Assembly: GCA_019635285.1 (NCBI GenBank)
Contig: JAHBZS010000009.1
Coordinates: 83,909 to 147,908, forward strand
Reading direction: 5' to 3'
DNA: 64,000 bases
Source: Rubrivivax sp.
Lineage (GTDB): Bacteria > Pseudomonadota > Gammaproteobacteria > Burkholderiales > Burkholderiaceae_C
Shown here in pieces: positions 13,104-16,929 of this stretch (position 1 is the first letter of the stretch; each line of letters starts with the position of its first letter). The notes under the pieces are model-generated. The model saw only the letters and a list, made by a program, of their open reading frames with translations, was not told the origin of the DNA and did no database searches. The position numbers and the translations under genes were made by a program.

Positions 13104-13438
13104 GCGCCCGGCTCCCGAGGTTTGGAGCCAGTGTCCCGCCAAGCCCGTCGCGCCGGCCTGACGAAAAGCGCCGCGTTCGCGGCTTTTCTTACATCGGTGC
13201 GGGCCTTGCCCGATGCTCCGCGGACAGGGCACGCCCAGCGCGACGGCCGGGACCGGCACGACGTGGACGAAGATCGCCGCCCGCGCGGACCCAGAGCGCC
13301 CCGCGGCGGGTCGGCGCCCCCCGTCGGACGGCCTGCGCTGCGCCAATTCGCGGCATCCGACGCCGCGGCAGCCGACGCCCGGGATGACGCTGCGGTAGAG
13401 TCGCCCAGCTTGGCGCCCCGGGGCATCGCGCGGACCGC
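13104..13438. other. 335-bp intergenic region between divergent flgG and the TIR-ankyrin gene
   Basis: No coding region was recognised. It contains a GC-rich hairpin with flanking A and T runs (13163-13190) that could terminate transcription in either direction. It must also hold the start signals for the TIR-ankyrin gene, and for flgG if flgG is not read from upstream. I see no convincing sigma-28 site or other promoter match. Confidence 0.6.
13163..13190. terminator. Bidirectional hairpin terminator candidate
   Basis: The stem GCCGCG/CGCGGC with a two-base loop is preceded by AAAA and followed by TTTTCTT. Read on plus, the T run follows the stem directly. Read on minus, TTTT follows two bases after the stem. 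On the minus strand it sits about 60 bp before the flgG start, an unusual place for a terminator unless it blocks read-through from the inserted cassette. Confidence 0.5.
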
Positions 13439-15286
13439 ATGGCCAACCCGAAGATCTTCATCAGCTACCGGCGCGACGACAGCATCGGCCACGCAGGCCG
13501 CCTGTTCGACCGTCTGGTGCAGGCGTTCGGGCGGGCCAACGTCTTCCGCGACGTCGATACCCTGGCGGCCGGCGAAGACTTCGTGCAGGCGGTGCGCGAC
13601 CGCATCGAGCGTTGCGACGTGTTGCTGGTATTGATCGGCACGCGCTGGCTCACCGCCGCCGACGAGGACGGCCGCTGGCGCCTGGCCGACGAGAGCGATC
13701 TGGTGCGCACCGAGATCGCCACCGGGCTGCAGCGCAACCTGCGTGTGATCCCGGTGCTGCTGCAGGGCGCGGCCATGCCCAAGGCCAAGGACCTGCCGGC
13801 GGAACTGGGGCCGCTGGCGCGGCGCAACGCGGTCGACATCCGCGACACCAGCTTCGACCGCGACGCGGCTCAGCTGCTGCAGCTGCTCGGCCCCCACTGG
13901 CGCCGCAGCGTGCTGCGCCAGTTGCAGCGCCCGGTCGTGTATGCCCCGCTGGCCGCGGCGGTGGCGCTGCTCGCCGGGCTGTGGATCTACCCGCGGGTGG
14001 CGCTGACGCCGGAGCAGGCGCGCGTGGAGATCGTGCAGATGGGCCTGGCCTACGATGCCGACGACTTCGTCGCCCGCGCCAAGGAAGGCGACCTCGCCGC
14101 CACCCGGCTGTTCCTGCGCGCCGGCATGGCGGCGGACGCGCCCGACCGTGAGGCGCACACCGCGTCGCAATGGGCCGCGGCGCAGGGACACCGCGAACTG
14201 CTGGAACTGCTGCTCGAGCGGGGCGCCGATCCGGGCAAACCGCTGGTCTGGGCGGCGGGCCATGGCAAGACCGACATCGTCGCCGGGCTGCTGCAGCGCC
14301 AGCCCGGCCAGGCCGCGGTCAGCGAGGCGATGCACAACGCCGCCGGCACCCGCCACACCGACATCGTCAGGACCCTGCTCGACGCCGGGGCCGTGGTCGA
14401 CGCGCCGCGGGGCCAGGACGGCAGCCGCGCGCTGATCGAGGCGGCCCGCGTCGCCAACCTGGCGACGGTGCAACTGCTGCTCGAACGCGGCGCCGACGTG
14501 AATGCGCAGGACGCCCACGGCACGACGGCACTGATCGCCGTGGTGAGTTCGGCTGCGTCTAGCCCCGACGCGCAGGACGCGGCGCAGCGCCTGGAGATCG
14601 CGCGGCGGCTGCTCGACCAAGGCGCCGACCCGAACCTGCGCTTGCGATCGATGCAGACCTGGCAGCCGACGGCCCTGTTGCTGGCCATCGACGCCGGCTT
14701 GCCGGCGCTGGCCTTGCTGCTGATCGAACGCGGCGCGGACGTGAACCTGAGCACCGCCTACCAGGGCGGCGACATGCGCCAGCTCAGCGCGCTGATGCGC
14801 GCGGCCCGCGCGGGCCTGCCCGAGGTCGTGGCGGCCTTGCTGGCCAAGGGCGCGGCCGTGCAAGCGCGCAACGAGAACGGCAACGATGCGCTGATGGAAG
14901 CGGCACTCGCCGACGCTGCCGGCCCCGCCGTCGCCAAGGCGCTGCTCGCCGGCGGCGCGGATGCCGGCGCCGTCAATGTCAATCAGCGCACGGCGCTGAT
15001 GTTCGTGGCGCGGCGGCGTGGCGCGGTCGACATCGAGTGGGTGCGCGGGCTGCTCGAACACGGCGCCAAGGTGGACGCCGCCGACAAGGTGGGGCGCACG
15101 CCGTTGATGTTTGCCGCCGCCGAGGGACAGGCCGACGTCGCGCGTGAGTTGCTGCGGCACGGGGCGCGCTGGGGCGCCGTCGATCGCGAAGGTCGGTCCG
15201 CGCTGCAGATCGCGCGCGAGGCCGGCCACCAGGAGATGGTGCAGGTGCTGACCGAGGCCGGCGCGCGTGCGCCTGCACCGAAGTGA
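13439..15286 (+). CDS. TIR-domain, single-transmembrane, ankyrin-repeat protein
   Basis: 615 residues in three parts. Residues 1-150 are a bacterial TIR domain: [10 protein letters not shown], then [27 protein letters not shown] and [10 protein letters not shown], where Glu92 is the likely catalytic glutamate of NAD-cleaving TIRs. One membrane helix spans about 166-185. Residues 195-610 are ankyrin repeats (recurring [17 protein letters not shown] units). The predicted topology is a cytoplasmic TIR with ankyrins on the other side of the membrane, or the reverse. It points against the flagellar operon it interrupts. Roles known for TIR proteins include NAD hydrolysis in phage defence and signalling, but no defence partner gene is beside it. 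Function is therefore open. Confidence 0.9.
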
Positions 15287-15307
15287 AGTCTGCCCCTTCG
15301 GTTGGCG

Positions 15308-16057
15308 CTAGCGGCGCAGCAGTGCCGGAAGCCCGGCCGCGACCATCGCGAGGCCGGCGGCGCTAAGCAGCAGCAGCACGACACGGCGGAAGGCCAGCGG
15401 GCTCAGGCCGCGGTAGATGCGCGCGCCGAGCAGCGACGGCAGCAGCATCGCCGGGGCGACGATGGCGAACTTGGACGCCATGTCCGCGGTCAGCGCCCCC
15501 GAGGCGATGTAGGCCACCAGCGTCGCCGCCAGCGCGGCCAGGCTGAAGTTCTGGATCACGCCGCGCTGCAGGTCCTTGTCCCAGCCGCGCAGGGTCACCC
15601 ACAGCGACGGCAGCACGCCGCTGAAGCCGGCGATGCCGCCCATCACGCCGCCGAGCAGGCCGACCACGCCGTCGGCCCAGCGCCCGCCGAAGCGCAGGCG
15701 TGGCAGCCGGTCGGCCCACAGCATGGCCGGACAGCACACCACCAGGAACAGGCCCAGGGTCAGCTTGAACACCGCCGGGTCCAGGTGCGGCAGCGCCCAG
15801 ACGCCGATCGGCACGCCGGCCAGTCCGCCGACCACGAAGGGCATCAGCGCGCCCGGCGCCAGCCCGCGCTTCACGGTGAAGACCTGGATGCACTGGCCCA
15901 GCAGGCCGCCGCACACCGCCATCGCCGCGGCCAGCCGCGGCTCGATGCCCCACACCCACACCGACATCGCGACCATCGCGAAGGCGAAGCCGGAGATGCC
16001 CTGCACCAGCCCGGCGAATGCCGCGCCGCCGGCAAGCAGCAGCAGCTCGGCGCTCAC
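15308..16057 (-). CDS. TSUP family (TauE/SafE-type) membrane permease
   Basis: 249 residues, almost entirely hydrophobic with about eight membrane helices in two halves. A glycine-rich pattern (GLVQGISGFAFAMV and GGVMGGIAGFSGVLPSLW) marks the TSUP/sulfite exporter TauE family. Members move sulfite, sulfonates or other small anions out of or into the cell, and the substrate here cannot be told. The GTG start has a weak AAGGGC upstream. It lies downstream of and co-oriented with the ChaC-like gene (58-bp gap). Together they form part of the cassette splitting flgF from flgG. Confidence 0.87.
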   Translation of the reverse strand: MSAELLLLAGGAAFAGLVQGISGFAFAMVAMSVWVWGIEPRLAAAMAVCGGLLGQCIQVFTVKRGLAPGALMPFVVGGLAGVPIGVWALPHLDPAVFKLTLGLFLVVCCPAMLWADRLPRLRFGGRWADGVVGLLGGVMGGIAGFSGVLPSLWVTLRGWDKDLQRGVIQNFSLAALAATLVAYIASGALTADMASKFAIVAPAMLLPSLLGARIYRGLSPLAFRRVVLLLLSAAGLAMVAAGLPALLRR

Positions 16058-16076
16058 TGCAATGCCCTTGGCACGG

Positions 16077-16122
16077 CGTGCTGCGGGACCAGCGCCTGGG
16101 AGCGGCCCGGCGCGCTCATGCC
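16077..16122 (-). repeat. Dispersed repeat, family B, copy 1
   Basis: This 46-bp block matches 30714-30759 at 41 of 46 positions, with the last 26 plus-strand bases identical. Both copies are in the same orientation and cover the TGA stop of a minus-strand gene (ChaC-like here, flhB there) and the following spacer. The core arm CGCGCCGGGCCGCTCCCA could fold. Identity was counted by eye. Confidence 0.6.
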
Positions 16123-16895
16123 GACGCGCGCACGTGCGCCAGCAGCTGCTTCAGGTAGTCGTCGCTGAGGCCCAGATGCTCGAGCTGCCGCACCAGCTGC
16201 TCCAGGTACTGGCGGTTGCTGCCGAGCACGCCGCGGGCCCGGGCGATGATCGCCGCGGTGTCGGCCAGCGGCAGCTCGCCCACGTGGTCGGCGTGCGCGG
16301 GGTTGGCCGCGAACACCAGCGCCCGCACCTCGCCCTGCGGCGTGTGCACCGGCAGCAGCTGCGGGCGGTAGATGCCGCGCAGCATCTCGCGCCGCCACAG
16401 CAGCGCCGATTCGTGGTCGGCCAGCGCCGCGGCGACGCGGAACACCAGCCCGGTGCAGGCGCCTTCGCCCGGCTCCAGCGTGAGCATCAGGCCCGGGCAT
16501 TCGATCGAGCCGCGCCCCAGGTGCGTGCGGTGCGAGAAGCGCCGCCGGTAGCGCGGCAGCTCGGCCAGCCGCAATTCGGTGAAATGGATGCCCGGGTCCC
16601 ACATCAACGAGCCGTAGCCGAAGACCCACAGGTCCTGCCCGTCGTCCAGCGGGCCCAGCAGCGCCTGGCGCGTGGCTTCCAGCTGCGCATCGGACAAGCG
16701 CCATTCGGCCCCCTGCCCCTGCAGGCGCGCGCGCGCGTCCCACTGCGCCATGACTTCCGGCGTGATGCGCAGCGCCGAGCGCTCGGCCGGCGCGATGCGG
16801 TCGCGCAGCTGCGGCAGGTGGCAGTAGACGTCGGCGTGACCGCCCGCGGCGGGGCCGGCCGGGTCGTGGCGCATCGCGGCGGTTCTGCGGCGCAT
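16116..16895 (-). CDS. ChaC-like gamma-glutamylcyclotransferase
   Basis: 259 residues. Residues 90-100 carry the family nucleotide-like loop VFGYGSLMW, followed by RRRFSHRTHLGRGS, CTGLVFRV and RREMLRGIY, where the Glu is the expected catalytic residue. ChaC enzymes degrade glutathione to 5-oxoproline and Cys-Gly in the cytoplasm. About 85 N-terminal residues precede the core domain, longer than minimal ChaC. A second ATG at 16874 is possible. The 34-bp spacing from flgF and the shared direction mean read-through between the two is likely. Confidence 0.87.
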   Translation of the reverse strand: MRRRTAAMRHDPAGPAAGGHADVYCHLPQLRDRIAPAERSALRITPEVMAQWDARARLQGQGAEWRLSDAQLEATRQALLGPLDDGQDLWVFGYGSLMWDPGIHFTELRLAELPRYRRRFSHRTHLGRGSIECPGLMLTLEPGEGACTGLVFRVAAALADHESALLWRREMLRGIYRPQLLPVHTPQGEVRALVFAANPAHADHVGELPLADTAAIIARARGVLGSNRQYLEQLVRQLEHLGLSDDYLKQLLAHVRASA

Positions 16896-16929
16896 CGAGA
16901 GACGGGAGCTTTGCGAAGCCCGCAGTATC

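Follow-up and report, generated by a model that had tools for sequence, protein, structure and literature searches.

We analyzed a 64-kb stretch of the genome of Rubrivivax sp. (contig JAHBZS010000009.1; the whole 64,000-nucleotide stretch is called the window here), in which the flagellar flg gene cluster is split between flgF and flgG by non-flagellar DNA. Comparison with related genomes revealed that this junction, alone among the nine from flgB to flgK, takes every large insert, and that flgG is preceded by a conserved promoter-like element that is retained next to it in nearly all interrupted clusters. The explanation that we favor, and consider probable, is that an internal and likely FlhDC-dependent promoter sets the boundary between two transcription units at flgF|flgG, and that breaks are tolerated there for this reason.

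Breaks at the flgF-flgG junction

In the window, the flagellar genes lie on the minus strand in the order flgB-flgC-flgD-flgE-flgF, followed by flgG-flgH-flgI-flgJ-flgK (identities from Pfam), and the gap between these two blocks covers exactly positions 13104-16929 (3826 bp). A preliminary description of this DNA had reported a split of about 3.8 kb, and was right both about the order of the genes within the blocks and about the contents of the gap, for which Pfam confirmed a TIR-ankyrin (TIR-Ank) gene on the opposite strand, a TSUP permease and a ChaC-like gene:

6285-7478: flgL, identified from a reading of the open reading frame (ORF)
7492-9465, minus strand: flgK (Pfam)
12321..13103, minus strand: flgG, first gene of the flgGHIJK block (LlgE_F_G_D1 3.1e-28)
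13439..15286, plus strand: TIR-Ank gene (TIR_2, E 4.1e-13, residues 6-147; Ank_2, E 4.5e-52)
15308..16057, minus strand, as the flg genes: TauE/TSUP permease (PF01925, E 2.3e-26)
16116..16895, minus strand, as flgF: chaC-like gamma-glutamylcyclotransferase (PF04752, E 1.3e-40)
16930..17661, minus strand: flgF, last gene of the flgBCDEF block (Flg_bbr_C 1.5e-16, LlgE_F_G_D1 2e-15)
about 20204-20581, minus strand: flgB (Pfam)

The GC content of the gap in 500-bp windows (0.70-0.75) is the same as that of its flanks. As the preliminary description had also noted, signs of a mobile element are lacking: a Pfam scan found no transposase or integrase among the three gap genes, and no repeats frame the gap ends among those listed for this locus (the 20 largest of 52 direct-repeat families and 25 of 112 inverted pairs), where the top direct-repeat family in the window consists of the ankyrin repeats of the TIR-Ank gene.

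For comparison, we used 80 named loci (minus 14 duplicates), 80 stretches of genus genomes and a few more; G and L numbers denote the compared genomes and loci, and G000 the genome under study. Spacers were counted at the nine junctions with one gene per place, and the counts still include a few loci that come from the same genome or are nearly identical. The gap statistics are a direct observation: gaps larger than 600 bp occur at flgF|flgG in 18 of 120 loci, and at none of the other eight junctions, with 119-137 loci each (flgB|flgC 121, flgC|flgD 122, flgD|flgE 128, flgE|flgF 137, flgG|flgH 126, flgH|flgI 122, flgI|flgJ 120 and flgJ|flgK 119). Gaps above 300 bp number 21 at flgF|flgG and 3 at flgD|flgE (the largest being 497 bp), with none elsewhere, and the median spacer is 137.5 bp at flgF|flgG versus at most 45 bp at the other junctions. 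In six genus genomes (G056, G055, G042, G009, G047 and G039), flgF and flgG are located on separate contigs, whose lengths imply a distance of at least 9 kb between the two genes; such splits were sought at flgF-flgG only. In these genomes, flgA-F and flgG-K are wholly apart, in the locus pairs L126/L192, L137/L194, L140/L195, L142/L216, L171/L217 and L179/L218.

Altogether, the flgF|flgG junction is interrupted in 14 of the 71 genus loci whose state is clear (8 by inserts and 6 by splits; 6 further loci gave no call). A FastTree tree, built with one gene per place and leaving out L191 and loci with fewer than 4 genes, comprised 127 loci, of which 124 were scored. At least 13 changes of state are required on it to account for the broken loci, a count that does not distinguish gains from losses and in which clades with differing cargo among their members (L058, L060, L081) are counted once. 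The family sample, a lower bound given that only some pairs are listed, contains inserts in G149 (apparently the same record as L052) and G188, as well as splits in G190, G204 and G206. Outside the family, none of the 43 listed flgF-flgG pairs is broken, and the gap measures at most 273 bp in all 44 listed pairs of the order, 43 of which lie outside the family. The separation is real, and flgF and flgG are normally adjacent in the order, as had been stated for most proteobacteria; the separation is not peculiar to this genome, as it recurs in the genus and the family, and neither is it the norm there. A literature search of limited depth yielded no published account of breaks at flgF-flgG.

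A conserved element before flgG and a box before flgI

Loci with a spacer of at least 75 bp before flgG share an inverted repeat, approximately GA(G/A/T)AAG-N16-CTTTTC, followed by CTCAAG or CTTCAG and then, about 30 nt ahead of the start codon, by GAAGAT or GATCAT; in most loci, some 25-35 nt separate the -10-like element from the flgG start codon. In the window, matches were scored with a position weight matrix (PWM) that was trained without the window and scanned over both strands of its 64 kb. The relevant features are:

13130..13136, minus strand: -10-like element of the predicted flgG promoter, at the end of the 61-nt PWM match 13130-13190
13163..13190, minus strand: FlhDC-box-like inverted repeat upstream of flgG, the best box-only PWM match in the 64-kb window
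20619..20679, minus strand: box and promoter-like site upstream of flgB, the best PWM match in the window (28.4 bits)
36402..36980, minus strand: flhC (PF05280 3.9e-85)
37018..37392, minus strand: flhD (PF05247 1e-39)

After the flgB site, the flgG site ranks second with 22.5 bits, followed by sites at 47716, 48306/48339 and 34887, the last of which precedes a methyltransferase-like gene. The 26-bp palindrome at 13163-13188 is the only match to a fixed pattern in the genome.

Across loci, a held-out PWM trained on 74 contiguous loci was applied with a threshold of at least 5 bits. At flgG, this threshold was reached in 73 of 74 contiguous loci (leave-one-out; in sample, 74 of 75), in 17 of 18 loci with inserts, in all 6 split loci and in none of the 26 short-spacer loci; the further family cases G188 (insert), G190, G204 and G206 (split) scored 12.2-45.4 bits. 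Elsewhere, the matrix recognized 56 of 119 upstream regions at flgB and 30 of 107 at flgI, and none at flgC (0/121), flgD (0/107), flgE (0/126), flgF (0/138), flgH (0/44), flgJ (0/76) or flgK (0/119). Judged from this distribution, the flgG element is older than the cassette, because most relatives with a contiguous cluster have it in front of flgG as well. The earlier proposal that the insertion is tolerated because flgG gained its own promoter therefore holds in part: flgG does have a promoter-like element of its own, but this was not gained with the cassette.

The element resembles the Escherichia coli FlhDC box in arms and spacing, the published core of which is AAATAGCG-N10-12-CGCTATTT in the section of PMC9962212 that covers it. 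Similarly, E. coli class II promoters (flgB, fliA, fliL), as outlined in parts of PMC9962212 and PMC4183435, have, ahead of a weak -10, an inverted repeat whose core half-sites resemble AAATAGCG and CGCTATTT and are spaced by about 10-12 bp. With respect to the hallmarks of this class, the same element is present at the classical target flgB, and both flhD and flhC are encoded in the genome; FlhC was found in 72 of 81 genus genomes. Unlike in E. coli, the half-sites here are closer to GA(A/G/T)AAG..CTTTTC, a conserved CTCAAG or CTTCAG stands before the -10, and the cluster itself holds an additional box, in front of flgG (or flgI). The flgG site agrees with the E. coli core in 11/16 positions at N10 and the flgB site in 13/16 at N11, counts that also occur in shuffled sequence; the window sites with at least 11/16 matches at N10-12, namely 47749, 13163 (flgG), 20652 (flgB) and 48339, coincide with PWM sites.

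The short-spacer loci carry the element in another place. It precedes flgI in all 23 scorable short-spacer loci, versus 6 of 71 contiguous long-spacer loci, 7 of 16 loci with inserts and 0 of 5 split loci, and was absent before flgI in other families (0/4). This flgI box overlaps the 3' end of flgH, in its last codons (for example in L083, L079, L023 and L071). A conserved isoleucine there is encoded by ATA (11) or ATT (12) in 23 of 24 short-spacer loci, while among the isoleucine codons in other flg genes of these loci ATA makes up 1.7% and ATT 8.1%; the rare codons at the flgI box suggest a constraint acting on the DNA. That no breaks were found at flgH|flgI is consistent with a break there parting flgI from its box or destroying it. 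We also considered the rule that every family member has either a flgG or a flgI box, which held in 131 loci apart from 4 (L044, L143 and a further two belonging to other families) that lack both boxes, and rejected it after it failed in the wider family.

Several other sites in the window are of interest in their own right. The PWM site at 47716-47776 precedes a GT41 gene, which is O-GlcNAc-transferase-like, and those at 48306-48399 are flanked by a GT2 gene and flagellin; this suggests that glycosyltransferases near flagellin share flagellar control. Next in rank after the site at 34887 is a weak match (7.1 bits; profile model E 0.117) near flhD, at 37527-37587 on the plus strand, which could possibly control flhDC or the adjoining glycosyltransferase-like gene. 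At 49400-50400 on the plus strand, antisense ORFs resemble those over flagellin, a hint of a second flagellin copy.

Cargo of the interrupted loci

Within the cassette, chaC starts 34 nt past the flgF stop, and the TIR-Ank and TSUP genes stand tail to tail with 21 bp between them. The TIR-Ank protein has the domain order TIR, predicted membrane helix (at about residues 170-190, by eye) and ankyrin repeats; PADLOC matched its ankyrin part to PDC-M72A (1.1e-42) and its TIR part to ThsB (1.9e-7). As regards anti-phage TIR defence, the TIR domain is present, with a glutamate as its likely catalytic residue by analogy, and the neighbors of the gene are chaC and TSUP. A second gene, with a TIR region that is 47% similar, is found at G000:C21.

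Four sister genomes carry related gap contents: chaC-TSUP in G028 (L191), cupin-chaC-TSUP in G025 (L116), cupin-DUF1810-TSUP in G048 (L117), and a gene without family assignment plus TSUP in G026 (L118). The gene content is thus nested, with TSUP at flgF|flgG common to the window and all four sisters, chaC there in two of the four, and a TIR gene at this junction in none of them. The window and the four sister loci form one clade (5 loci, support 100) in a first tree, and the same clade is found in a second tree (4 loci, support 100), from which L191 was left out. Orthologues of chaC (61-62%) are located elsewhere in the G048, G026 and G064 genomes, and the nearest other TSUP (72%) is located elsewhere in G075 (E at most 1e-30 in both cases). 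With at most 15 candidates scored per genome, we found no full-length relative of the TIR-Ank gene in the genus, with no match at E 1e-25 past residue 191 of 615. By parsimony, the cassette is best read as built stepwise rather than by a single insertion, with TSUP first, chaC next and TIR last. TSUP would have entered in the ancestor of the five sister genomes, chaC, which probably came from another part of the chromosome, would have joined it in the ancestor of three of these, and the TIR-Ank gene would have entered in this genome alone. The cassette is accordingly not a single insertion, given that the sisters carry TSUP with other neighbors and the TIR gene occurs here only; nor is the whole cassette ancestral in the family. 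From their arrangement, chaC and TSUP are presumably read from the flgB unit.

At other loci, the insert contents vary clade by clade. A Pfam scan of 30 insert proteins from 14 loci, a subset of the insert genes with one protein (L158) in the wrong frame, found no recombinase or transposase. The scanned inserts include a PMT_2 glycosyltransferase, a ketoacyl synthase, a response regulator and a kinase (L170); PP2C, VWA, PrsW and a protein kinase (L127); a BTAD regulator (L044); a hexapeptide transferase, a periplasmic binding protein and a sulfotransferase (L076); a Clp protease and MFS (L081); G6PD (L060); and HD-domain and hemerythrin proteins (L053). Others hold cupins, DUF1810, RidA-like, SnoaL-like and ParE proteins, a molybdopterin oxidoreductase and a cytochrome c peroxidase. 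We regard the cassette genes as unremarkable passengers; what deserves attention is that one place has been chosen again and again, and that this choice is linked to an internal promoter-like element.

Explanations for the break point

We infer that the conserved element acts as a promoter under the control of FlhDC, and that its presence causes the tolerance of breaks. An older flagellar promoter of flgG, composed of an FlhDC-box-like inverted repeat and a -10-like element, would make flgBCDEF and flgGHIJK(L) separate transcription units. Foreign DNA would then part no gene from its promoter at one place only, the spacer ahead of the box, which would explain why unrelated genes have repeatedly accumulated there; in some lineages, both halves have drifted wholly apart. 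In E. coli, flgBCDEFGHIJ is given as one operon (in the portion of PMC9962212 concerned). A division like the one proposed here is mentioned in a passage of PMC6637908, according to which Rhodobacter sphaeroides transcribes flgGHIJKL as a unit apart and flgG has a promoter in Xanthomonas citri. In these two species, as would be the case here from the sequence, flgG begins its own unit; control there is by sigma-54 in that same passage, whereas the element here has an FlhDC-type look, and the boundary here is a site of repeated insertion and splitting.

It is conceivable that spacer length alone accounts for the pattern, the longest non-coding stretch simply taking most neutral insertions, with flgG served by read-through rather than by a separate promoter. 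The median spacer lengths are in line with this, and chaC and TSUP are co-directional with flgF and close to it, making read-through into both plausible. However, read-through cannot serve flgG in the window, because the TIR gene opposes flgG for 1.85 kb, or in the six split genomes, because flgG is nowhere near flgF. Moreover, the element beside flgG is kept across inserts, and flgD|flgE gaps reach 497 bp without larger inserts. Under length alone, the rough chance that 13 of 13 events fall at flgF|flgG is 2.4e-5, and we consider this explanation unlikely. We judge it similarly improbable that the element is a promoter that depends on another regulator or sigma factor, such as sigma-54. Such a promoter would fit the partial match to the E. 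coli core (mean 9.1/16 across 87 loci), the conserved CTCAAG or CTTCAG between box and -10, which is absent from the published box, and the sigma-54 control reported for flgG of X. citri (PMC6637908, same passage). Yet the same element stands at flgB, flhD and flhC are encoded close by, and inspection by eye, used for both sigma-54 and sigma-28 promoters ahead of flgG in place of a dedicated sigma-54 scan, found no -24/-12 pair at conserved positions.

Two further explanations concern the cassette itself. The resemblance of the TIR gene to defence-related families (PDC-M72A, ThsB), and its presence at flgF|flgG in this genome only, would suit an island of defence or cargo genes that a mobile element, its ends since decayed, had brought in; the lack of transposases and integrases, both here and among the 30 scanned insert proteins, and the differing contents between clades make this very improbable. 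An assembly artefact might be suspected, given that G000 is a draft of 89 contigs and many relatives are metagenome bins, but TSUP or chaC-TSUP occupies the same place in four other assemblies, and inserts are also present in the single-contig genomes G004 and G188, leaving next to no room for this option.

A number of observations weigh against an internal FlhDC-dependent promoter as the reason for the break point. Firstly, flgF|flgG is the longest spacer, with about 44% of the median intergenic bases, and length by itself predicts some excess of breaks. A Fisher test by spacer class (23/98 versus 0/26 broken) is partly circular, as the short class is defined as unbroken and has no room for the 61-nt element. 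It was replaced by a comparison based on box calls, in which 23 of 96 loci with a box are broken versus 1 of 29 without (p 0.014, with no adjustment for kinship). Two loci run counter to the pattern, namely L044, which has a 5.4-kb insert and scores -3.1 bits held out, and the contiguous L143, at -9.9 bits. Of 15 additional loci of the family that include flgI, the flgI box is present in 10, of which at least 2 (L242 and L243) had already been counted, and 5 have neither box (L244, L246, L248 with 3.1, below the threshold, L250 and L251). Matches to the E. coli core in the window are not above those in shuffles (0-5 sites with at least 11 matches per shuffle). A loose box pattern, which was not used, gave 12 sites in the whole genome versus 11 for a reversed control. 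The profile model R1 ranks three non-flagellar sites first over the own genome; 5 of its 10 matches with E <1 lie inside the window, and none is individually significant after the top two. On eight other genomes, R1 placed the flgG site best in G006, G045 and G031 (all in training) and in G191 (outside training), and recovered that of G188 at E 0.29, with no G004 or G017 flgG site among the matches listed. Finally, promoter activity is deduced from DNA sequence.

Operons gain and lose neighbors over time. What sets the present case apart from such general operon insertion is that one junction of nine takes every large insert, beside an identifiable internal promoter-like element. We tentatively put forward a broader idea, which we think may well prove wrong, that internal promoters predetermine the break sites of operons. 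The cluster of this family would alternate between an FlhDC-type promoter in the flgG spacer and one in the last flgH codons before flgI; only the former would leave a landing site, such that only its lineages gain cargo or lose linkage, and cargo behind flgF (chaC-TSUP) would also come under flagellar control.

Why operons persist or fall apart is an old question, and the present case is a well-known cluster in which a single junction of nine has broken at least 13 times. The break lies beside a conserved promoter-like element and affects roughly a fifth of the genus; these loci amount to a natural replicated experiment, and they offer a simple prediction that can be tested in other clusters and in Rubrivivax relatives that can be cultured: breaks should follow internal promoters.

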